Shown one piece after another: positions 4,625-27,481 of a DNA stretch of 27,985 nucleotides (position 1 is its first letter; each line of letters begins with the position of its first letter). The notes beneath the pieces were generated by a model. It saw nothing but the letters and a program-made list of their open reading frames with translations, did not search any database and had not been told where the DNA came from. The DNA comes from a virus. Made by a program: the position numbers and the translations under genes. The stretch spans positions 1 to 27,985 of the IMG/VR virus record IMGVR_UViG_3300027728_000067; one strand, 5' to 3'.

Positions 4625-4752
4625 CAAAGTGGGACCGATTACTTGAAACGAATATGTATTTATGTCTAAGCACTGCGTCTCTAATAAAAGATAGAATAAT
4701 TAAACAACAGAACGAGATAAAGAAACTTGAATCAAAAATGAAGAAAAACTAA
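3947..4752 (+). CDS. Chaperone fusion product by -1 frameshift (GT-like)
   Basis: Reading -1 at the T9 run gives a 268-aa product: 167 shared residues, then FFFAHIKRIHHTYKHFFES, an acidic stretch EDEDREVSETTEEDT, and a helical end (FYFELTYQLCKEDLTKWDRLL...KRIIKQQNEIKKLESKMKKN by pattern). The -1 frame is open from before the run to a TAA at 4750-4752 whose last A is the first base of the next ATG (TAATG), exactly the coupling used elsewhere in this operon. This supports that the -1 frame is coding. Alternative: a lost T in a T10 run (sequencing error or mutation), in which case only the fused protein would exist. Confidence 0.65.
4447..4456 (+). other. Slippery T-run, programmed -1 frameshift site
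   Basis: Nine T followed by G. In the zero frame it reads GCT TTT TTT TTG, offering the heptamers T TTT TTT (4447-4453) and T TTT TTG (4450-4456), both good -1 slippery sites of X XXY YYZ form. Confidence 0.65.
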
Positions 4753-5294
4753 TGAACCAATATACAACATTCCATAAGGTCTTGGATTACCTTCAAGACT
4801 TCCAAGTCGACTCACCAATTATGAATACGTTTTCGTATGGTAACTTGGTAGATTTTGGACAGATTCATATATCAGGGGGAACTGTAGAATATCCGTTTAT
4901 GTTTGCGGTCCCACAATCGATTCAATACGATGACAACATAACGACATATAACATGACGTTGATTTTTGCTGACATCTTGAATTGGGATTTAAGTAATGAA
5001 AGGGATTGTGTTTCAGATATGAGTCTTCAAGCACGTAGATTCCTATCCTATGTTAAAAGAGGTATCCATACCTTCCCTGAATTGTATAACAATTTTGACA
5101 TCAATCTACCGGTTCAAGCAATACCGTTCTTTGAGAGATTCGGTGACCACGTAGCAGGTGTTGCGATGGAGGTTCCAATCATGGTATTCGAAGACCTAAA
5201 CGCATGTGATTACTACGATGAGACTCCAACACCAACGGTGACAAGTAGTCCTACTCCGACACCAACAATCACACCCACGGTAACACCATCTTAA
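4752..5294 (+). CDS. Putative tail terminator/completion protein with Pro/Thr tail
   Basis: 180 aa. Residues 1-157 form a compact domain (FHKVLDYLQDF..., a central SGGTVEYPFMFAVPQ, then QAIPFFERFGDHVAGVAMEVPIMVFEDLNACDYY in outline) of the kind found next to gp10-like proteins in Bacteroidota phages, where tail-terminator genes sit. Residues 158-180 are a short TPTPTVT...TPTITPTVTPS tail, the same linker seen in three other virion proteins here. A bare linker at the C-terminus with nothing attached is odd: it may have lost a terminal module or serve as an exposed tether. Start overlaps the fused chaperone stop by one base; 6 nt separate it from the next gene. Confidence 0.65.
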   Translation: MNQYTTFHKVLDYLQDFQVDSPIMNTFSYGNLVDFGQIHISGGTVEYPFMFAVPQSIQYDDNITTYNMTLIFADILNWDLSNERDCVSDMSLQARRFLSYVKRGIHTFPELYNNFDINLPVQAIPFFERFGDHVAGVAMEVPIMVFEDLNACDYYDETPTPTVTSSPTPTPTITPTVTPS

Positions 5295-5300
5295 TAAGTC

Positions 5301-5873
5301 ATGAGTCAATCAACCAATTACCTTGAACTTATCGCAGACATTCTAAAGGATGACATCCAATCAGAACTTCTAAAAATTAGACCGTCAAGAGGATTTGATG
5401 GACAGAGAAAACCTGTGTCAGGTAAATACCCAACACCATTAAACAACCGTGTTGATACAGGTCGTTTATACAACTCAGTGACAGTAGATTTTGTGAATGA
5501 CCCCCAAGGTCAGACAAGACTAAGATTGTCGTTTCCAAACGCTCCTGAGTGGAGATTCGTTAACGATGGTCGTAGGGGTAAGAAACAAAATCCAGCACTC
5601 AGATACCCACCTTTAAGAGCAATAACAGAATGGACTTACAGAAGAGGACTGTCTCAATTTAGAGATTCCCGTGGTAGGTTCATAACAAATCAATCAAGAG
5701 CATTTATGGTTCAAAGAAGTATCGGTGAATACGGTATTTATCCAACCAAATTTATCGATGAAGGATTTAATAAAGCACGAGAAAGAATTGTTTATTATTT
5801 AGGTCTTTACGGAAGAACAATTCTTGAAGACTTTATACAGAAAAAAATTATCATTCAAACAAACCAAAGATGA
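5301..5873 (+). CDS. HK97 gp10-like tail/neck protein
   Basis: 190 aa. The order 'NRVDTGRLYNSVTVDF ... WRFVNDGRRGKKQNPALRYPPLRAITEWTYRRG' described by its motifs (DTGxLxxS, then W/Y-V-x-xGR, then PP...I..W) is typical of the HK97-gp10 family, which sits at the neck and helps join head and tail. A C-terminal basic amphipathic region (YYLGLYGRTILEDFIQKKI) follows. Position after the putative tail terminator agrees. Its stop overlaps the next ATG by four bases. Confidence 0.75.
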   Translation: MSQSTNYLELIADILKDDIQSELLKIRPSRGFDGQRKPVSGKYPTPLNNRVDTGRLYNSVTVDFVNDPQGQTRLRLSFPNAPEWRFVNDGRRGKKQNPALRYPPLRAITEWTYRRGLSQFRDSRGRFITNQSRAFMVQRSIGEYGIYPTKFIDEGFNKARERIVYYLGLYGRTILEDFIQKKIIIQTNQR

Positions 5874-7543
5874 GCATTTCATTCCTAAATACGCCTGCGG
5901 AATTCCAACCCGTATTATCAGACGGAATCTATTTCACCGTCTCAGGTTCAACCTATGACCCACAAACGACATTCAAATTCAAGTATGTCTACAATTTGGA
6001 AGTTGACGGTGTTCCTGTATTCTCAGGTAAGTGTTCTCCAAATCCATTCGGATTGGGGATTATTGACCTTCAACAGATATTGGAAACTTATACCAATTCG
6101 TTACCCATTTCATATTGGGATACGACCCCAATCTATACACACCAAACATTCCCGTTCTCAAGACCAGCAAACGTTGAAACCATCTTCTACCAAATCAAGG
6201 TAGGTTATGAGTATTCGGATTCTGCAATCAGTCCGATAACAGGTTTCACAGGATATGGAAACTCAATCGGTTTACCAGCGGTAGCGTCACAGGGATACAA
6301 GGTTTTCCGTTCAACTATGGGAACCAATCCAAACGCAACCCTACAAGACTTTAACATCAATCCATTTGTTTTATCAGGAACCCCACAAGGGATATATCCA
6401 ACAACATCAGGATTGTTCCTAACCAACGCACCACGAATATTAGATATCACACCCAATGACTATTTTACCTTGGGATTCACAAACTATTATCTGTGGAGTG
6501 GATTTACATCAATGGGTTTATCAGAACCATATTATAGTGAGTATAATTACTATGACGACCAAGGAGCACTAATCACCACCGAGAGGTATGAAAACCTCAC
6601 GACCAACGGAGGGGGTCCAAGAACTATATGCACGAACGTTTATCAGAACCTATTTCTGATTGACCCGTTGTCTGCGGTCACGGAGTTCAATACACTTTAT
6701 GTGGGAGCAGGACCTCTAAACATTCCTAACTTCCCGAGTGGAACAACACAATACACCGTTCAGTTGTTTGGTAAGTTCACAGGAACGACAACACCGATTC
6801 CTGCGTCCCCGACTCCAACACCTACACAGTTCTTAACACCAACTCCAACTCCTACACCATCATCAACCCCTGTAGGAATCTGTTCAGGTTGCACCGAGTA
6901 TCAAATAACATACACAGGAGAATCCGTAGCGAGTGTTACAATAATAAATTGTTATACACAACAACCACAAAATATTCTAATCCAACCCAACTTAGTTTAC
7001 AATTTATGTTCTTGTGAATTCCCTGTAACTGAAGTGGAGATGCAAATCTTAACAGGAGGTCCATGTGGTCCACCAATCACACCAACACCAACTCCAACTC
7101 CAAGTAATAGTTGTATTTGTGTAGAATACATAGTTACAAACGACACCCTATTGACTGACTTCATTCAATACATAAACTGTCTTGGTCAGGGAGTTACGTT
7201 TAGTTTAGGAGGAAATAGTGCGACAACGATATGTGGTTGTGAAGGGACCGTTGAAACAACATACTCAACTGTTAGTGAATTAGGACCTTGTGTTCCCCCA
7301 TCACAAACACCAACAAGAACCCCAACTAAAACTCCAACACCAACACCAACACCAGCGTGTGTTTGTGTTGAATACCAAATTGACTCAGAGCGAGAAGATG
7401 TAACTACAGTATCTTACATTGACTGCGATAATCAAGCGCAATTTGACTCACTACCTGGATTTGGAACCCTAATAATTTGTGCTTGTGAAGGTTCTGTTAA
7501 TGTTGAAGGTGGTGTTTCTATTACTAACTTAGGTCCTTGTTAA
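5870..7543 (+). CDS. Virion protein with three linker-joined Cys-rich repeats
   Basis: 557 aa. Residues 1-305 form a beta-rich domain (PAEFQPVLSDGIYFTVSGS..., SYWDTTPIYTHQTFPFSRP) of the type I associate with Bacteroidota phage tails. Then come three copies of a roughly 60-residue module at residues 338-399, 415-474 and 497-557. Each starts C-x-C/xxC then EY, has an internal Y/I-x-x-C, a C-x-C-E pair, and ends GPC. Pro/Thr linkers (TPTPTP) separate the copies at about 308-334, 403-413 and 480-495. The six conserved cysteines per copy suggest disulfide-stapled beta modules on the outside of the particle. Likely role: tail-side adhesion or decoration; the exact function is unknown. Confidence 0.7.
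   Translation: MSISFLNTPAEFQPVLSDGIYFTVSGSTYDPQTTFKFKYVYNLEVDGVPVFSGKCSPNPFGLGIIDLQQILETYTNSLPISYWDTTPIYTHQTFPFSRPANVETIFYQIKVGYEYSDSAISPITGFTGYGNSIGLPAVASQGYKVFRSTMGTNPNATLQDFNINPFVLSGTPQGIYPTTSGLFLTNAPRILDITPNDYFTLGFTNYYLWSGFTSMGLSEPYYSEYNYYDDQGALITTERYENLTTNGGGPRTICTNVYQNLFLIDPLSAVTEFNTLYVGAGPLNIPNFPSGTTQYTVQLFGKFTGTTTPIPASPTPTPTQFLTPTPTPTPSSTPVGICSGCTEYQITYTGESVASVTIINCYTQQPQNILIQPNLVYNLCSCEFPVTEVEMQILTGGPCGPPITPTPTPTPSNSCICVEYIVTNDTLLTDFIQYINCLGQGVTFSLGGNSATTICGCEGTVETTYSTVSELGPCVPPSQTPTRTPTKTPTPTPTPACVCVEYQIDSEREDVTTVSYIDCDNQAQFDSLPGFGTLIICACEGSVNVEGGVSITNLGPC
6881..7540 (+). repeat. Three tandem Cys-rich domain repeats with Pro/Thr linkers
   Basis: Protein-level repeats at 6881-7066, 7112-7291 and 7358-7540. 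Copies 2 and 3 are closest (CxCVEY ... CxCEG ... LGPC); copy 1 is more diverged (CSGCTEY ... CSCEF ... GGPC). Confidence 0.85.
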
Positions 7544-13792: not shown

Positions 13793-15820
13793 ATGTATAA
13801 AATTATAGAACTTGAGATAGACCCTGAATTATCAGGAAACACCGGTGTGTTCGAGGTAGCATGGGTTGAATACCCTGCGATAGAACAGGAACTTATGTAT
13901 TTCTCCAAATACAAATTCTTTAAAGCACCCGACTATGTCTCCTCCAAAGCATGTCAAGCAATCAAGGAGAACCAGAAACGTGGTAATCCAGCAGGGACTC
14001 AAGTAGGAAAGGTTCGTGCACAACAGTTGTGTAACCAAGAGGAAATCTCATTGGAGACCATCAAGAGAATGAAGTCATTCCTATCAAGAGCTTCGACCTA
14101 TGACACGGGTAATTGGGATGACAATGGAACGATTGCTATGGGACTTTGGGGTGGTCAGGAAGCGTTAACATGGGTCGACAAGATTCTTGACCAACAAGAA
14201 GAAATGGGTATCCAAGATTTTGTTTACCCAACAATCGGTGAACCCAAAGATGAGTTTATTTCCCGTTGTATTCCATATCTAATTAACGAAGGTAAGACCG
14301 AGGATGAAGCGCTAGGTCAATGTTATGGAATGTGGGAGAACAGGGAATTCTCTCCTGACAAAGTGTCATTTGATTGGGATGATACATTAGATACTCGTGG
14401 TGGTAAAATGTTATTGAAACAGGAACTCCAAAGGGGGTCTCTGATTTATATCATATCCGCACGTTCAATGACCTCAAAGGAAATGATTGACCTTAGTAAC
14501 GAATATGGATTCCCTGCGAGTCATATTTACACCACAGGAAGTAACCAAGAAAAGGTTGAAAAAATTAAAGAACTTGGAATCAAAAGACACTACGATAATA
14601 ACTTCAGAGTTATTCAAGATTTAGATGGAGTAGGTATCAAGTTCGATTACGATGTTACAGGATTACCAAGTTACGACAATTACCCATCATCAGGAGACAC
14701 CGACAGTATGTTGATTGAACCTGTGTTATTCTCATGTGGATGTGATTTACATGAAGAAGATTTTGAATGGACAGAGGAAGATTTGTTGATGAAACAAGAA
14801 TTCACCAAACTAAAAGAGAACCTGACTCAAGAAGAATTTGAAGCGGTCACCAACCCCCTACTTAGAGGATTTACTGAATCTGAAATTTACGGGTTGAATC
14901 ACCCTACACCTGTGACTTATTTTGAGTATAACAGAAAACTCGGAGGAAGTCCTGACAGAGACTTTTGCACTTCCATTCAGGGTAGATGGTTCCGTAGAGC
15001 ACAAATCGATGCTCTGAGGGATTTAAACACCCAATTTGGACATAACAGACAACCGTATTCTAAGTGGTTGTATAAAGGTGGACCGAATTGTGTTCACGCT
15101 TGGTATAAAGCATTATTCCAAGGTAGAAACCGAGCGGACCAAGGATACGCTCAGGGTCTTGCAGGACAAGCACCAAAAGAACTTCCTAACCAAGGATATT
15201 ACAACGAAGAGACGAAACGTAAAAGTGAGATTGCTTACATAGTATCTCAACAAAACATGAACTCAGTTTCTTATACCAAGTCATTAGATTGTTTTGGTGA
15301 TGTTTGTAAGGTAGGATTCAGTAAAGAAACCAATCAGATGTTCGCTACCAAGACGGACCAAAGGATGGTTTACACTCCACTGATGATACCTAATATTCTA
15401 ATACCTCGTTTTGATGAAGTGTCAAATGAAAAGTATTTTGTAAAATTTACTCTTGAGACAATTCTTAAGATTCAACAAAAGTTCATGATAGAACAACGAA
15501 CCCGAGCAACCAACTACGAACATTCAGATAAGAAATACAGTGATGCGGTGATGGTGGAGTCATGGATTGTTGAAGGTGAAAAGGATAAATCATATGAACT
15601 TGGTTTTACCCAAGAACAGATTCCGTTTGGAACATGGATGGGGGGGTATAAAATCCTCGAAACCCCCGAGGGAAATGAGATTTGGAATGAACTTATTAAA
15701 AATGGAAAAGTCAAAGGAATGTCCGTAGAAGGTAATTTCTTAATGAATTTTTCACAGGTTAAAACCGATGAGTATTTATTAGAACAAATCATAAACATAT
15801 TAAATCAAATAATTGATTAA
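13793..15820 (+). CDS. Mosaic head protein: WGG module, HAD phosphatase, MuF-like, XkdF-like prohead protease
   Basis: 675 aa with modules in order. (1) Residues 50-130: a module with the RG...G...A..L, then KRMKSFLSR and GLWGG, W pattern of phage head proteins. (2) 152-182: EFISRC...CYGMW, another head-protein motif. (3) About 188-288: HAD phosphatase: motif I FDWDDTL (D194, D196), motif II S222 in IISARS, motif III a Lys among 254-259, motif IV D268 in HYDNN. (4) About 355-440: MuF-like part with DRDFCTSI and GGPNCVHAW (Cys/His cluster 392, 433, 435). (5) 515-650: XkdF-like protease with VYTPLMIPN, NYEHSD (H577), VESWIV and GMSVEGNF (S644). It precedes scaffold and capsid genes, fitting capsid maturation. 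The HAD insertion is unexpected; its motifs look intact. Confidence 0.85.
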   Translation: MYKIIELEIDPELSGNTGVFEVAWVEYPAIEQELMYFSKYKFFKAPDYVSSKACQAIKENQKRGNPAGTQVGKVRAQQLCNQEEISLETIKRMKSFLSRASTYDTGNWDDNGTIAMGLWGGQEALTWVDKILDQQEEMGIQDFVYPTIGEPKDEFISRCIPYLINEGKTEDEALGQCYGMWENREFSPDKVSFDWDDTLDTRGGKMLLKQELQRGSLIYIISARSMTSKEMIDLSNEYGFPASHIYTTGSNQEKVEKIKELGIKRHYDNNFRVIQDLDGVGIKFDYDVTGLPSYDNYPSSGDTDSMLIEPVLFSCGCDLHEEDFEWTEEDLLMKQEFTKLKENLTQEEFEAVTNPLLRGFTESEIYGLNHPTPVTYFEYNRKLGGSPDRDFCTSIQGRWFRRAQIDALRDLNTQFGHNRQPYSKWLYKGGPNCVHAWYKALFQGRNRADQGYAQGLAGQAPKELPNQGYYNEETKRKSEIAYIVSQQNMNSVSYTKSLDCFGDVCKVGFSKETNQMFATKTDQRMVYTPLMIPNILIPRFDEVSNEKYFVKFTLETILKIQQKFMIEQRTRATNYEHSDKKYSDAVMVESWIVEGEKDKSYELGFTQEQIPFGTWMGGYKILETPEGNEIWNELIKNGKVKGMSVEGNFLMNFSQVKTDEYLLEQIINILNQIID

Positions 15821-16588
15821 ATGAACGCAACAGAAGCAATCAACAAAATCGCTGTTTTGTTAGGATTAAAATTTAAGTCCGAAAAGTTCATGGTTACTAA
15901 ATTGGTAGACGGTTCAACCGAAATCACAAATAATCAAGAAGGTCCATTCTCCGTAGGTGAAGGACTTTTTGTTGTTGGTGAAGATTCGATATTGGTTCCC
16001 GCACCATCAGGTTCACACGAAACTCGTGAAGGGTTGATTCTTACCGTTGGTGAGGATTCAATCATTTCAAAGATTGAGGACAAACCTGTGGTAGAGGAAT
16101 CGAGTCCTGTGGTAGATGCAGCGACGGATGTTGAAATCGAAACAGAAGTCCTATCAAAAGCAACCTTAACTGACGGAACTAAAATTGAAACTGACGAGGA
16201 AAGTGATTTCGCAGTTGGTCAAAAACTCTATGTTATTACAGAAAGTGGAGAAAGAGTTTCAGCACCCGAAGGTCAACACACAACAGAATCCGGTATCACT
16301 TTGGTGGTAGACGGTGAGGGTGTAATCACGGGGGTTAAATACCCTGATGAAGAAGGTGAAGGAAGTCTTGGAGACATGAAAAGTGACATGAAAAACATGA
16401 AACAAGCGATGACAGAAATGTTATCAATGTTAAACAATTTTTCCAAGGATTTTGAATCCTATAAAAAAGATTATGAAGAATTTAAAAATTCTCCTGTCCA
16501 TAATAATCCAGTGGTTAAAAAAACCTTTGGACAAGAAAACATAATGGACGCAAAGGTGAGATTTTTAAGGGAAGCATTAAAGAATTAA
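15821..16588 (+). CDS. Putative capsid scaffold protein with duplicated domain
   Basis: 255 aa, acidic. Two related beta repeats: residues about 28-88 (LVDGSTEI, VGEGLFVV, VPAPSGSHETREGLILTVGEDSIISKI in outline) and about 113-172 (LTDGTKIET, VGQKLYVI, SAPEGQHTTESGITLVVDGEGVITGV in outline). A Met/Lys-rich helical or coiled-coil region follows at about 180-225 (MKSDMKNMKQAMTEMLSML), then a C-terminal MDAKVRFLREALKN. Coiled coil plus basic C-terminal helix next to the capsid gene fits a scaffold that binds the capsid protein, and the start follows the protease gene stop directly. Likely a substrate of that protease; this is inference. Confidence 0.7.
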   Translation: MNATEAINKIAVLLGLKFKSEKFMVTKLVDGSTEITNNQEGPFSVGEGLFVVGEDSILVPAPSGSHETREGLILTVGEDSIISKIEDKPVVEESSPVVDAATDVEIETEVLSKATLTDGTKIETDEESDFAVGQKLYVITESGERVSAPEGQHTTESGITLVVDGEGVITGVKYPDEEGEGSLGDMKSDMKNMKQAMTEMLSMLNNFSKDFESYKKDYEEFKNSPVHNNPVVKKTFGQENIMDAKVRFLREALKN

Positions 16589-16606: not shown

Positions 16607-17575
16607 ATGAAAAAACAAATGTTAAAAAAAGGTGAAGCAAAAAACTTCTCTTTTAACTACGATTTGTCAAATCTTCCCACATACGAACAGTATGGAGATG
16701 ATATGATGATTAAAGCATTTCTTGGTCTTACACTTCCAAAATATAGTTCTGTAAGAGTAAATTTAAAGGGAACCACAGAATTGGTTGGTTTCGTAACTAA
16801 CGATGTAATTTTGCAAGACCTTTCTTGTGGATTTACTCCGACAGGTGATACAACACAAGATGTTGTAACTGTTAATCTTTGTAGCAAAAAGGTAAACCAA
16901 CAATTATGCCCATACTCGTTGTTTGATACCTATTTGTCTCAGTATTTAACTGACGCAAACTTCCAAGAGACAGTTCCATTTGAGGAGGTTATCTTAACTG
17001 ATATCGCTAACAGAACTGCTAACCAAATTGAACTACAATTATGGAGAAACACAACCGCATCAGGTGGAACAATTTATAACTCACAATGTTTTGATGGTGT
17101 AATTGCGTTAATTACATCAGGAAACGGAGCAACAAGAGTTGCTTACACAGGTGCTACTGCTACTAACGGTTTGGATGTATTCTCTTCATACTACAGAGCA
17201 ATTCCTGAGAACGTTCTTCACAGAGATGACCTTGTAATTTACTGTGGTTATTCTGACTACAGAGCGCTTGTTGCTAGCATGAGAAACAACTCATTCATCA
17301 ACCTGTTTACTGATAACACATCAGTAGGAACAGATAGTGCTGATTGGGGTGTTATGTTACCTGCATCTAACTGTAGAGTAATTCCAACTCAAGGTTTGAC
17401 TGGTCAAGGTAAAGTATACGCAGGACCGGCGCAATACGTAATGGTAGGTATGAATTCCGAATTTTTCACTCAACGCGCACTCTATGACCCGTTCGAGGAC
17501 ATTGTAAAACTTAACCTTCATGCTACATACGGGCTCGGCGTATTCAGCGTTGATTCTTTCGTAGTTGCAAACTAA
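16607..17575 (+). CDS. Major capsid protein
   Basis: 322 aa. Located after protease and scaffold, with an A-rich leader (AAAAAAAACAATAAAAAA) as expected for a highly expressed gene in a Bacteroidota host. The HK97-like fold is suggested by an early PTYEQYGDDMM segment, an E-loop-like part, the spine-helix region around VILTDIANRTANQIELQLWRN, and the C-terminal beta/P-domain ending (YAGPAQYVMVGMNSEFF, YDPFEDIVKLNLHATYGLGV) which is typical of Bacteroidota phage capsid proteins. A second ATG at 16619 is possible; the first is preferred for the leader. No N-terminal delta domain cut site can be told by eye. Confidence 0.85.
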   Translation: MKKQMLKKGEAKNFSFNYDLSNLPTYEQYGDDMMIKAFLGLTLPKYSSVRVNLKGTTELVGFVTNDVILQDLSCGFTPTGDTTQDVVTVNLCSKKVNQQLCPYSLFDTYLSQYLTDANFQETVPFEEVILTDIANRTANQIELQLWRNTTASGGTIYNSQCFDGVIALITSGNGATRVAYTGATATNGLDVFSSYYRAIPENVLHRDDLVIYCGYSDYRALVASMRNNSFINLFTDNTSVGTDSADWGVMLPASNCRVIPTQGLTGQGKVYAGPAQYVMVGMNSEFFTQRALYDPFEDIVKLNLHATYGLGVFSVDSFVVAN

Positions 17576-18217: not shown

Positions 18218-19615
18218 ATGAAGTGGAACGGAAGAAGTTATAGACCCGTATCGGGTATTTCCCAAAAGAAAAAACCTTTTGATTTCCAAGAAGCGTTAAA
18301 ACCTCTTGGTGAAAAAAATATACCTGTATGGAATCTTGTTATGTCGGTTGACAATGAAGTTCCCGCATCACCTGTTCCAACATCATCACCTACCCCAACA
18401 CCAAGTATTACTCCAACAATTACCCCAACACCTGGATTGAGTCCAAGTCCGACTTCAACAGTAACCCCAACGGTTACTCCGTCAATATCGGTTTCGGTTA
18501 CTCCAAGTTTAACACCAAGTATTACCCCAAGTATTAGTCCTTCAGTTAGTCCAACTATTACTCCATCTGTATCCGTATCTGTTAGTCCAAGTTTAACACC
18601 GACAACAACACCTACAAATACACCAAGTATTAGTCCAACAACAACCCCAACTAATACACCATCAGTATCTGTATCTGTTAGTCCAAGTTTAACACCAACA
18701 ACCACACCTACGAATACTCCATCAGTATCTGTATCTGTTAGTCCAACTTTAACACCAACACTTACACCAACCCCAACGTCATCACCTATACCACCGAGTC
18801 CATCAGTGACTGCAACATCAACTCCTACTCCAACTCCAACTCCTCAAGGAGTGAGTGAAGCACAGACCTATATGTCTGCGGTAATTGCAGGTGGGGGAAC
18901 TCTTGACGCTACATCATCAGGAGCAACATATCAATTATTCTATGACCTATTCAATTATGGTCTATGGAGTAAATTATACTCATTCTACCCACTTTTAGGT
19001 GGAAATAGTAGTGGAGGTCAATCAGTCAACGGAAAGACCCCTGGAACCCGTAATATCACTTGGAATGGTGGTTTAACATTCTCTACCAATGGTGTTGTTT
19101 CAAATGGTTCAACAGGTTATGGTGATTTGAATTCTAACCCAAGTAGTATTGGAACATTGGATGATTTCCATATGTCGTTCTATTCAAGAACAAACCAACA
19201 AGAAGCGACTAACGAATTCGATATGGGTGTTTATGAAGTTGCTGCACAAAGAACTCAAATAAACTCAAGGTCAACATTGGATGATACAAGAGGTGTTGTA
19301 AACGCACAAACTCAAGGAACATTCTCAAATAGTGATTCTCAAGGATTATTTACCATAACAAGACGAAGTTCAACTGATACTGAATTTTATAGAAATTCAA
19401 CATCACTTGGTAATTCTGCAACAACATCAACATCAAGACCAAACGGTGATTTGTTCTTAATGGCAAGAAACTGGATTGGTAGTGGATTAGTTGAATCACC
19501 AACAACAAGACAATATGCGTTTGTTACTACAGGAACAAAATTAACAGATAGTGAAGTATCAAATCTATACACAACGATTCAGAACTTCCAAACAACATTA
19601 GGAAGACAAGTTTAA
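18218..19615 (+). CDS. Tail fibre/adhesin: anchor, Pro/Thr-Ser stalk, lectin-like head
   Basis: 465 aa. Residues 1-48 (MKWNGRSYRPVSGISQKKKPFDFQEALKPLG in outline) form a short conserved N-terminus that I take as the virion anchor. Residues about 50-209 are a low-complexity stalk of TPS/TPT/SVSVS units. Residues 210-465 form a beta-rich domain with SKLYSFYPLLGG, ITWNGGLTFSTNGVVSNG, GY and a C-terminal LTDSEVSNLYTTIQNFQTTLGRQ, which looks like the concanavalin-A/LamG-like domains of phage receptor-binding proteins. Downstream lies an 85-aa protein in tandem (2-nt gap). The sugar or protein recognised is unknown. Confidence 0.75.
   Translation: MKWNGRSYRPVSGISQKKKPFDFQEALKPLGEKNIPVWNLVMSVDNEVPASPVPTSSPTPTPSITPTITPTPGLSPSPTSTVTPTVTPSISVSVTPSLTPSITPSISPSVSPTITPSVSVSVSPSLTPTTTPTNTPSISPTTTPTNTPSVSVSVSPSLTPTTTPTNTPSVSVSVSPTLTPTLTPTPTSSPIPPSPSVTATSTPTPTPTPQGVSEAQTYMSAVIAGGGTLDATSSGATYQLFYDLFNYGLWSKLYSFYPLLGGNSSGGQSVNGKTPGTRNITWNGGLTFSTNGVVSNGSTGYGDLNSNPSSIGTLDDFHMSFYSRTNQQEATNEFDMGVYEVAAQRTQINSRSTLDDTRGVVNAQTQGTFSNSDSQGLFTITRRSSTDTEFYRNSTSLGNSATTSTSRPNGDLFLMARNWIGSGLVESPTTRQYAFVTTGTKLTDSEVSNLYTTIQNFQTTLGRQV
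18364..18846 (+). repeat. Pro/Thr/Ser-coding repeat array with 60-bp tandem unit
   Basis: Degenerate in-frame repeats (ACACCAACA, CCAAGTATTAC and similar). Within it, a 60-bp unit beginning CCATCAGTATCTGTATCTGT starts at 18659 and again at 18719, with a more diverged copy from about 18563. Such arrays can change length by slippage or recombination. Confidence 0.9.
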
Positions 19616-21784: not shown

Positions 21785-23089
21785 ATGGGTAGGGTTTTCC
21801 TCAATAAAAAGTTTAGTGATTATCTCGGTGAGAACCGAGCGTTATTGGATATTATAGTTAGGTTCGTTCCTGACCCATCATCAACACCATTACCACCAAC
21901 TCCAACACCAACACCTACACCGAGTATAACTCCAAGTATAACTCCAAGTATTAGTCAAACTCTTACTCCTACAAATACCCCAAGTATTACCCCAAGTATT
22001 ACACCTTCGGTATCTGTAAGTTTAACACCAACTCTTACTCCAAGTATCACACCGAGTATTACTCCGACTATTTCTTTAACTCCTTCTCCGCAATATTTGT
22101 GTAATAGTTTTGTAAATCCTCCTGATACAATCAATGGAATTACCATTACACAATCTTTTAGTGGTGCAGCAACTCCTTATGTCTTCAGTCCTCAACTTTG
22201 TTGTGGTGGAACGATATTCCCACCTACAGGTGGAATCTATGTAGGTTATGGTGGTGTTAGTGCATGTCCTCCTCCAATTTATCCATTCTCATACACCTTG
22301 AACTTTACAAGTGGTGTTAACGATATTGATATTGTAATATACGGTGGAGGATGTGCAGGTGGTCTTAATGAAGAATTATTTGATATTACAACAAGTGAAG
22401 GTAATCCGACATTATCATTTGTAGGTTCAAATTGTTTCACCACATTTACAGGAAACACCGTAGCACAAGGTTTAGGATGTTGTGCAAGTATTAGCGATAC
22501 ACCATTCGCTAAATTCAATATTAACGCACCAAGTAATTTTACTTCTCTAACCATAACAGGTAATGGTGGTTATCGAGGTGCGGTTATAGGATTATGTTCA
22601 GATTCAATTCCTTTTCCAACAACACCAACAAATACTCCAACAACAACCCCAACTATAACACCTTCGGTATCTGTTAGTTTAACTCCAACTAATACTCCAA
22701 CAAATACCCCGAGTATCACACCTACCAACACACCGAGTATCAGTCCAACAAATACTCCAAGTATCAGTCCTACAAATACCCCAAGTATCACACCTTCGGT
22801 ATCTGTGAGTCCAACTCTTACTCCAACACCGACAACATCACCTATACCTTTTAATTGTGCTTGGAGTGCTATAACTGAAGTATGGACATCCAATGCAAAT
22901 GATTGGGATGAGTGTCAACCTGTTCCTCCGTTTAGTCCAACACCAACTCCAACACAAACTAAAACACCAACACCGACTCCAACTAAAACCCCTACTCCAA
23001 CTCCAAGTGCATTACCACACTTCATTCTTTATGAAACAGGTGATATAATGGAAGCAGAGAACGGTGATTTAATTGAATACGAATACTGA
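21785..23089 (+). CDS. Long fibre: anchor, Pro/Thr linkers, Cys-rich domain
   Basis: 434 aa. Anchor at 1-29 (MGRVFLNKKFSDYLGENRALLDIIV in outline), different from the anchor of the 18218 protein. Linker 1 about 30-103, then a Cys-rich, Gly-rich domain at about 104-275 (CNSFVNPPDTINGITITQSFSG, CCGGT, YGGGCAGG, CCASIS), linker 2 about 276-354, a short NCAWSAITEVW...WDECQPVPP segment, linker 3 about 383-409, and a C-terminus SALPHFILYETGDIMEAENG. It looks built from cassettes joined by flexible stalks. Next gene overlaps by one base. Confidence 0.75.
   Translation: MGRVFLNKKFSDYLGENRALLDIIVRFVPDPSSTPLPPTPTPTPTPSITPSITPSISQTLTPTNTPSITPSITPSVSVSLTPTLTPSITPSITPTISLTPSPQYLCNSFVNPPDTINGITITQSFSGAATPYVFSPQLCCGGTIFPPTGGIYVGYGGVSACPPPIYPFSYTLNFTSGVNDIDIVIYGGGCAGGLNEELFDITTSEGNPTLSFVGSNCFTTFTGNTVAQGLGCCASISDTPFAKFNINAPSNFTSLTITGNGGYRGAVIGLCSDSIPFPTTPTNTPTTTPTITPSVSVSLTPTNTPTNTPSITPTNTPSISPTNTPSISPTNTPSITPSVSVSPTLTPTPTTSPIPFNCAWSAITEVWTSNANDWDECQPVPPFSPTPTPTQTKTPTPTPTKTPTPTPSALPHFILYETGDIMEAENGDLIEYEY
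21872..22092 (+). repeat. Pro/Thr/Ser-coding repeat array (linker 1)
   Basis: Low-complexity coding repeat with TPTPTPS and ITPSITPS units; contains the string ACACCTTCGGTATCTGT found again in linker 2. Confidence 0.9.
22612..22845 (+). repeat. Pro/Thr/Ser-coding repeat array (linker 2)
   Basis: Same type as linker 1. ACACCTTCGGTATCTGT occurs at about 22658 and 22791, giving near-identical stretches within one gene. Confidence 0.9.
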
Positions 23090-26037: not shown

Positions 26038-26249
26038 TAATCCGAACTAATTTTTCGGGTAACTGTTCTTTCCAATTCGTTGAGTTCATTTATCAGGGAT
26101 AAAAACGTAGGGTCTGTTGGAGATACCAAGACACAGTATTTTGATATGAAGTTATTCTTTAGGACTTGAGCAACCCTGAGTTGATTTTGGTTCTGAACTG
26201 AGTTTATAACCTTTCTTACATATTGTAATTCTTTATCGTATTGTGTCAT
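26028..26249 (-). CDS. Small hypothetical protein
   Basis: 73 aa: MTQYDKELQYVRKVINSVQNQNQLRVAQVLKNNF in outline, then SPTDPTFLSLINELNELERTVTRKI. Helical; the first 40 residues could form a compact helix pair. No family recognised. Start overlaps the previous stop by ATGA. Confidence 0.6.
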   Translation of the reverse strand: MTQYDKELQYVRKVINSVQNQNQLRVAQVLKNNFISKYCVLVSPTDPTFLSLINELNELERTVTRKISSDYLF

Positions 26250-26701
26250 AATTGGTGTTTAATTTCAAATTGTTGATAAATTGGAATCTCACTGTTGGTA
26301 TCGTATCCAAGTAGGGTTAACATCTCCATTGATTGTTCCTTTTCGTTCTTACGTGCGAGGTCATTACTCCTTGGTCCGTTGTATATCTTGGTAATCACCT
26401 TACAGTTGTATTGGTAACCGTGACCACCTTTGGTTCGTTGAAAATCGTCACAGGGGTGAAACTCCTCATGTTTGGAACACAAACACATCTCAACACCGTC
26501 CACGATTTTATGACGGATTACTTTGTCCCTACGAGTTAGTTGATAACTGTTGATACATTTGCGACAGTAATAATTGAATCCGGTGATTTTTTTATTGTTT
26601 ACCGCAAACTCAGAACATGGCTGGTAACCCTCATGTTTTAGACAGTAACAATAATCAATACCGTCCTTTTGATATTTTCTATCTAAGTTGTGAGACATCA
26701 T
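26246..26701 (-). CDS. Double CxxC/CxC zinc-ribbon-like protein with FEIKHQL end
   Basis: 151 aa from the ATG at 26701; an upstream TTG and a downstream ATG at 26698 are alternatives. Two tandem repeats of one unit: KDGIDYCYCLKHEGYQPCSEF...NYYCRKC (about residues 11-50) and VDGVEMCLCSKHEEFHPCDDF...QYNCKV (about 66-103), each with CxCxKHE, P-C-x-x-F and a later C. These should bind zinc or be a degenerate nuclease-type finger. The C-terminus MLTLLGYDTNSEIPIYQQFEIKHQL matches the end of the 27116 gene. Starts inside the preceding HTH gene (23-nt overlap). Function unknown; DNA or RNA binding likely. Confidence 0.75.
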   Translation of the reverse strand: MMSHNLDRKYQKDGIDYCYCLKHEGYQPCSEFAVNNKKITGFNYYCRKCINSYQLTRRDKVIRHKIVDGVEMCLCSKHEEFHPCDDFQRTKGGHGYQYNCKVITKIYNGPRSNDLARKNEKEQSMEMLTLLGYDTNSEIPIYQQFEIKHQL

Positions 26702-27110
26702 CAAATACCCATTGATTATGAAACCTCGTAAGTTCTTCTGTGGAGGGTTGTTTTATCATCAGTGATATCTTACCCTCACTTTGTAGAGAACCGTTCTTAT
26801 ATGTCAAATAAACATACAAATTGGAGGTGTCTGTGAATACCATACCAATTACGGTTTTGTATATGGTGTCGATAACCTCAGTTTCAATGAGGTAATTACC
26901 TCCAAGTTCATATTTCATTACAAAGGAATGGTTCTCTGTATTCCATCTTTTGTTCCTACGAATTTGAGAGATGTGAACACGAGATAATGATTCACCCGAA
27001 TTGGTTCGGTAGATTCTTGAGATTTGACTGTTGTTTAGACCCATGTCAAACATTTCTTGTAGACGGTCGAGGTCATCTGTTGTCTGATTGATTTTACTTG
27101 CTCCTATCAT
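26679..27110 (-). CDS. HTH-containing protein
   Basis: 143 aa. Residues about 12-56 (DLDRLQEMFDMGLNNSQISRIYR ... VHISQIRRNKRWN) have the form of a helix-turn-helix: helix, N-N-S-Q-I-S-R-I turn, second helix, then an I-R-R-N-K-R-W-N recognition-like segment like those next to homing endonucleases. A beta-rich part follows (YLIETEVIDTIYKTVIGMVF, LYVYLTYKNGSLQSEG). No nuclease residues visible. Lies between two CxxC proteins, so it may partner with them. Confidence 0.65.
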   Translation of the reverse strand: MIGASKINQTTDDLDRLQEMFDMGLNNSQISRIYRTNSGESLSRVHISQIRRNKRWNTENHSFVMKYELGGNYLIETEVIDTIYKTVIGMVFTDTSNLYVYLTYKNGSLQSEGKISLMIKQPSTEELTRFHNQWVFDDVSQLR

Positions 27111-27115
27111 AATTT

Positions 27116-27445
27116 TTAAAGATTGTGTTTTATTTCAAATTGTTTCCATACAGGAAGTTCTGTTGGTCCAAATGTGTAACCAAGATTCTTCAGGAGAACT
27201 TCGGTCTGTTGGAAATCTGAATCTGTGATTGTATTCATCTTCAGATAATCCAACTCAGGGTTGTTCTGTGGTTTCTCTTTAACAAAATGGATTTTACATT
27301 TATAGGTCTTACCAAATGGAGTATGAACTGAATTATAGAATTCATCCTCACGTTTGTAATCACCACACAACCTACAGAAGTAGTAGATTCCGTCTTCCCT
27401 CCACAGTTTCCTTGAGAGGTATGTGTCAATACGTTTGTTTCCCAT
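27116..27445 (-). CDS. CxxC protein with FEIKHNL end, paralogue of 26246 gene
   Basis: 109 aa from the ATG at 27445; a TTG at 27481 and an ATG at 27463 would lie upstream of the predicted transcript start, and the promoter -7 box fits a start at 27445. It has one copy of the unit found twice in the 26246 gene (REDGIYYFCRLCGDYKREDEFYN...YKCKI), here with CxxC, and the same ending (LLKNLGYTFGPTELPVWKQFEIKHNL). First gene of the leftward operon. Family not recognised; metal-binding DNA or RNA protein is likely. Confidence 0.75.
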   Translation of the reverse strand: MGNKRIDTYLSRKLWREDGIYYFCRLCGDYKREDEFYNSVHTPFGKTYKCKIHFVKEKPQNNPELDYLKMNTITDSDFQQTEVLLKNLGYTFGPTELPVWKQFEIKHNL

Positions 27446-27451
27446 ACTCAA

Positions 27452-27481
27452 TAAATATATCATGACTTGACTAAGGGTCAA
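27452..27481 (-). promoter_or_regulatory. Leftward promoter, divergent pair
   Basis: Minus strand: TTG (27481-27479), 19 nt, TATATTTA (27459-27452), then 6 nt to the ATG at 27445. Overlaps the rightward promoter. Confidence 0.6.
27467..27481. promoter_or_regulatory. Candidate operator TTGAC-N5-GTCAA
   Basis: Perfect inverted repeat TTGAC TAAGG GTCAA whose two arms are the -33 elements of the two divergent promoters. A protein bound here would block both. The adjacent ribbon-helix-helix protein is the natural candidate. Confidence 0.6.

Follow-up and report, generated by a model that had tools for sequence, protein, structure and literature searches.

The window, i.e. the whole stretch of DNA that was analysed, comprises 27,985 bases and is a virus record of IMG/VR. 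Among its head genes lies an ORF for a 675-aa protein, which is multidomain as judged from the matches of its modules and of its neighbours (Table 1). The protein matches Pfam Peptidase_S78_2 (PF14550, XkdF) with 45.9 bits at a cutoff of 24, and from the membership in this family a catalytic role can be ascribed to H577 and S644 of the protease core. The gene that follows is probably scaffold-like, as suggested by its position and by a counterpart which is fused to XkdF in phage P12024L.

Table 1. Features of the 675-aa protein and of the genes downstream of it (positions refer to the window)
Feature	Position	Strand	Basis
Modular 675-aa protein, split XkdF-type prohead protease with an inserted block (residues ~40-515)	13793..15820	+	ORF; Peptidase_S78_2
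XkdF N-terminal 'VxxPAI' segment, residues 1-37	13793..13903	+	V25, P28, A29 and I30 invariant in 44 aligned proteins
phrog_2859-type helical module, residues 48-135	13934..14197	+	phrog_2859, E 2.2e-8
'DEFxxRC' module, residues 146-183	14228..14341	+	Counterpart in relatives weakly matches phrog_2423
HAD domain, residues 185-290 (core ~186-287)	14345..14662	+	AF2, VIA, family alignments
HAD motif I FDWDDTL, residues 193-199, with D194 and D196	14369..14389	+	Exact DNA match, alignments
HAD motif II, S222 (in IISARS)	14456..14458	+	S/T in 119/132 copies
HAD motif III, K254	14552..14554	+	132/132 copies
HAD motif IV HYDNN (residues 266-270), with H266 and D268	14588..14602	+	Both in 132/132 copies
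Linker FDYDVTGLPSYDNYPSSGDTDSMLIE, residues 284-309, major-capsid-N-terminus-like	14642..14719	+	Reciprocal profile matches
MuF-like module, residues 345-460	14825..15172	+	RxFC...YKGGxNCxHxW signature
XkdF protease core, residues 518-648, H577 and S644 invariant	15344..15736	+	Pfam, alignments
Next gene, scaffold-like	15821..16588	+	Weak C-terminal match to phrog_24921, E 0.002
Likely major capsid protein	16607..17575	+	phrog_1623 virion structural protein, E 6.9e-5
Capsid N-terminal FNYDLSNLPTYEQY, resembling the post-HAD linker	16652-16693	+	Reciprocal profile match

A preliminary description of this DNA had proposed a HAD phosphatase in the middle of the protein, with D194 and D196 in motif I, a motif II Ser, a Lys and D268 in HYDNN, and our family alignments confirmed that these residues are in place. 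Among 132 distinct HAD copies K254, H266 and D268 are invariant, while D194 is present in 123, D196 in 117, the full DxD in 117, and Ser or Thr at position 222 in 119. Motif IV contains one Asp, in contrast to the commoner DD. Relatives of the domain are encoded by 232 IMG/VR stretches according to a first scan and by at least 487 according to a later one. The entire 675-aa protein is also encoded, at 100% identity, by the contigs L002 and L003, and therefore the presence of a HAD domain in XkdF is not an artefact of the assembly of this contig. A search of the domain against NCBIfam retrieved nothing, and its matches in Pfam and PHROGs were weak and did not name it; HAD-bearing relatives gave weak PHROG matches to nucleotidases. 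No cultured phage carrying a HAD of this family was found, and in bacterial genomes the first scan detected none and the second two loci.

The HAD fold and named phosphatases

Residues 185-290 were modelled with AF2 together with 60 relatives (pLDDT 94.4, pTM 0.87). The Rossmann-like core expected for a HAD is present in the model: it is a five-stranded Rossmannoid of ~95 residues without a cap, and the motifs lie where strands 1, 2 and 4 end. Residues ~186-287 apparently form a HAD phosphatase domain that is minimal, capless and intact, with a complete catalytic set. With its pTM of 0.34, the AF2 model of the full-length protein was not used to infer how the domains pack, nor how the PAI segment lies against the core. 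When this model was used for fold searches, the matches were filled by HAD or XkdF.

The domain had also been likened to polynucleotide 3'-phosphatases, and this likeness is supported at the level of the fold only: the VIA comparison with the 3'-phosphatase domain of T4 Pnkp, which is capless as well, gave a Z of 10.8 and an rmsd of 2.7 over 100 of 106 residues, at 18% identity. However, it is shared with AphA (Z 10.1), with universal stress proteins (USP), which are not HADs (Z 10.9), and with several HADs (Z 8-11). Since USP folds score as high as HADs, the fold alone leaves the function unnamed. In hhalign, the HAD profile was aligned to T4 Pnkp with a probability of 5%, although motifs I and II are in register, and we do not claim membership in the T4 Pnkp family by sequence profile. 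The window HAD is also smaller and has no kinase domain. We consider it improbable that the domain is an end-healing enzyme, i.e. a T4-Pnkp-like 3'-phosphatase whose targets would be DNA, packaged or injected, or RNA that host defences have cleaved: the rank of T4 Pnkp among the top structural matches and the stand-alone HAD copies adjoining packaging genes (see below) are in line with such a role, while the tied Z scores and the separate sequence profiles argue against it.

In the sequence search of PDB with a profile of 12 HAD sequences, the class B acid phosphatase AphA was the best match (E 8e-4). With a profile of 60 sequences this match weakened to E 0.18, and AphA was not retained as a sequence relative; the top match of the larger profile was a surface protein and was judged spurious. 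AphA differs from the window HAD also in being a cellular enzyme of about twice its length. Foldseek against PDB gave no match at E<=1e-3.

The slot within XkdF and the carriers of the domain

To see the domain in its context, the arrangement of XkdF itself has to be considered. In gp01 of the Nonlabens phage P12024L, which resembles the window protein in its N-terminal 'PA' segment, in the invariant His and Ser of the core and in the head-gene neighbourhood, the 'VxxPAI' segment is joined to the XkdF core by a short linker, whereas in the window protein ~475 aa of modules, the HAD among them, occupy this place. We analysed 75 XkdF proteins found by the protease core alone and not chosen for HAD, a sample which is biased to the query core and the fractions of which do not equal population frequencies. 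In 38 of these 75 proteins the gap between the 'VxxPAI' segment and the core is only ~16 aa long. In the others it contains a phrog_2859-like module (22 proteins), phrog_2859-like and DEFxxRC modules (12), DEFxxRC and HAD (1) or DEFxxRC alone (1), and one protein is cut. Since minimal XkdFs keep segment and core close to each other, residues 40-515 of the window protein fill an internal slot, and on these comparisons the whole block of phrog_2859 module, DEFxxRC, HAD, linker and MuF-like module is inserted between the 'VxxPAI' segment and the XkdF core. The statement of the preliminary description that the HAD lies upstream of XkdF is thus correct with respect to the core, but the domain is actually nested inside the XkdF chain.

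The assignment of the region downstream of the HAD as MuF-like can be kept in part. Its RxFC...YKGGxNCxHxW signature is common to the window protein and to the portal-MuF-like fusions L067 and L085, and two relatives resemble the C-terminal part of the portal family phrog_33693, but Pfam gave no MuF match for residues 330-485. The other modules vary among the relatives: the phrog_2859-type module can be present, absent or moved, while the DEFxxRC module immediately precedes the HAD in most proteins. Further slot contents are a DUF5824-like module (L222 3852-5447 and L217 3882-5447) and a CxxC...CxxC zinc-ribbon-like stretch (L212 4287-5453). The full-length model is matched, too, by the BFVD entries A0A6J5KKZ6 and A0A6J5PDS7, whose names are Zeta toxin or ParB/Sulfiredoxin, so that XkdF may be accompanied by other enzymes as well.

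A search for other XkdF and MuF proteins with a HAD had been suggested, and such HADs were found in the XkdF slot with many module orders and in portal-MuF-like fusions. The search for the loci counted here started from the HAD or from the complete protein, a query that lies inside XkdF, and only the best matches were kept, so that other contexts may exist. The commonest architectures among these best matches are PAI-DEFRC-HAD-XkdF (42) and PAI-P2859-DEFRC-HAD-MuF-XkdF (34), the latter being that of the window; other XkdF carriers contain the modules in differing orders. The best matches further include six complete portal-DEFRC-HAD-MuF-like proteins plus a few variants, and seven short ORFs with a HAD. 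In L099 and L191 the short HAD gene is located before the genes for the small (GP3_package) and large terminase subunits, and in L279, a contig binned as a Bacteroidetes MAG, directly after an insert-free XkdF gene. The stand-alone copies that were read have kept DxD. Already in UniProt/BFVD, XkdF proteins of uncultured Caudovirales (e.g. A0A6J7WUA4) contain the same HAD at 30-52% identity; their name 'PBSX protein, XkdF' covers XkdF only, and nesting, cassette exchange and pseudo-allele are absent from it.

In L046 (1-1179), a different HAD precedes the XkdF core, with a weak match to Acid_phosphat_B (25.7 bits versus a cut-off of 27), and this type was seen in no other contig scanned. This points to an independent recruitment of another HAD subfamily before XkdF. 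The XkdF slot can hold or lack several modules that are unrelated to one another, and such a pattern could result from mere genomic mosaicism, in which the HAD would be a mobile reading frame accepted by permissive linkers and without any role in the head. We regard this as very unlikely, because the catalytic set is conserved under purifying selection (see below), because the HAD is confined to the protease, the portal fusion or a nearby small gene and is never present twice in any locus checked, and because of the second HAD subfamily in L046.

Catalytic, dead and absent alleles

Fifteen of the 132 HAD copies lack DxD, and they correspond to one clade (FEWE-TL, FIQG) plus L031 and L114. When a HAD tree was built for the MuF-type set, the pseudo-HADs formed a single clade of 14 rows with a support of 100/100; they have lost DxD and motif II and have kept K254, H266 and D268. 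Loss of DxD in close relatives, which the preliminary description had regarded as speaking against a phosphatase, thus exists in one clade with an alternative allele and not in the window's own allele. A scan for the dead-type HAD detected it in 17 contigs, most of which already belonged to the set analysed, and those examined are of the window's carrier type.

On the carrier tree, which was based on the MuF-like and core parts, the HAD labels need 10 changes, at least seven of them forced for 'catalytic'. For the genes of L056 (catalytic allele) and L006 (dead allele), DNA identity is 95-100% over most of the length and locally 0.82-0.93, and at residues ~200-280 it drops to 0.40-0.62. In the pair L032 and L026, one gene cleanly lacks 99 codons which hold the HAD in the other. 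Among 190 pairs of close carriers, defined by a core identity of 88% or more, HAD identity is below 60% in 4 of 143 pairs, and the corresponding values are 0/123, 0/46 and 0/131 for the PAI segment, P2859 and DEFRC, and 1/72 for MuF. Differences in presence or absence concern P2859 in 25 of the 190 pairs and HAD in four. These data indicate that the HAD moves as a cassette between near-identical carriers of the window's architecture. All four pairs with exchanged HAD are L054/L056 versus L004/L006, and perhaps they reflect one recent event.

Both the catalytic and the dead allele appear to be under purifying selection, since the medians of dN/dS are 0.22 and 0.23 for the two alleles, although the pairs compared depend on one another and dS is high in some of them; for the window versus L014 dN/dS is 0.07. 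The existence of many carriers without HAD and of one dead clade implies that the HAD is not essential to assembly, and the dead allele speaks against essential catalysis and in favour of a binding role or of effector turnover. In this context it should be considered whether the HAD fold is a structural or scaffolding module, i.e. a domain that serves the protease or scaffold as a spacer or for docking, and in which catalysis is incidental or being lost. The retention of K254, H266 and D268 under purifying selection in the 14-member clade would agree with it, as would the restriction of the pseudo-allele to the few contigs mentioned above. We nevertheless think that this is unlikely, because DxD is present in most copies across ~50% identity and in the stand-alone copies read, and half of the sampled XkdFs do without an insert.

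Possible entry into the head and release

Taken together, the HAD phosphatase is probably a cassette that can be present or absent and can be exchanged, and that occupies a single permissive slot of an XkdF-family prohead protease; from its carriers we infer its entry into the head, release and action. Prohead proteases and portals are located in or at the procapsid, and since they end up there, the HAD may enter the head together with its carrier. The head-gene context alone is weak evidence of such entry, because structural genes of phages cluster. In the head, autoproteolysis could free the HAD, possibly at the linker after it. The HAD is immediately followed by FDYDVTGLPSYDNYPSSGDTDSML. 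When a profile of the linker, built from relatives, was searched against 151 ORFs of the window, it matched, besides its own protein, only the likely capsid N-terminus (E 1.5e-5; next match 0.54), and in the reverse search the capsid N-terminus retrieved the linker (E 5e-4; next match 3.7). The linker is retained in relatives without HAD, and the capsid N-termini of small-XkdF phages are mostly without a linker-like stretch. The linker may serve as a cleavage site for the protease or as an element for docking. The freed HAD would then have a phosphate ester as its substrate, either inside the head or, after injection as an internal protein, in the host. In HADs, small size and the lack of a cap favour macromolecular substrates, e.g. 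a nucleic-acid 3'-phosphate.

Alternatively, the HAD could be an injected effector which dephosphorylates a host nucleotide or phospho-signal and thereby, much like polyvalent proteins, counteracts defence or helps to take over the host, with dead copies as binders or decoys. The exchange of alleles looks like effector turnover, and the PDB match to AphA (E 8e-4 with 12 sequences, 0.18 with 60) and the nucleotidase matches of the relatives, weak as they are, point in the same direction. However, the window HAD has no cap domain, while HADs with small substrates are usually capped unless they are oligomeric, and we hold this function to be rather unlikely. A precedent for it exists in the MuF/portal effector fusions: polyvalent proteins and such fusions combine head-associated carriers with enzymes thought to be delivered into the host (PMC5512222), and MuF polymorphic toxins have also been described (PMC5576092). 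They resemble the window protein in the combination of carrier and enzymatic domain, and some versions are inactive (PBECR in the MuF of Mu). They differ from it in the carrier, which for the HAD is the protease itself, and in the location of the cargo, which for the HAD is within the protease chain. Neither XkdF nor a phosphatase was found in the text of PMC5512222, and the papers searched contained no description of the arrangement seen here.

In phage T4, internal proteins and Alt are packaged and injected with the DNA; they can be compared with the HAD by analogy only, as they are encoded by separate genes and are no part of the protease. It is tempting to extend the cassette reading and to speculate that XkdF-type proteases are general cargo carriers, so that enzymes placed in the slot would enter the procapsid, be released by autoproteolysis at a capsid-like site and be injected, and that catalytic, dead and empty cassettes would be traded in response to hosts. 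This extension is possible but somewhat doubtful. Little is known about which enzymes phages put in their heads and by what route. An internal slot of a protease, in which enzymes can be exchanged, points to a simple way of targeting, namely to ride in with the protease and to be cut loose, and catalytic and dead alleles swapped between near-identical carriers represent a natural experiment on the purpose of the phosphatase.

Finally, some features elsewhere in the window were noted. Long Pro/Thr/Ser repeats (PTPTPS) are present in proteins of the structural region (4752-5294, 5870-7543, 18218-19615 and 21785-23089). The ORFs 18-452 and 1323-1868 share the N-terminal stretch RDLLHRELSDLKNRK and are likely paralogues, and the same holds true for the Cys-rich ORFs 26246-26704 and 27116-27481 on the minus strand, which have the similar C-termini QFEIKHQL and QFEIKHNL.
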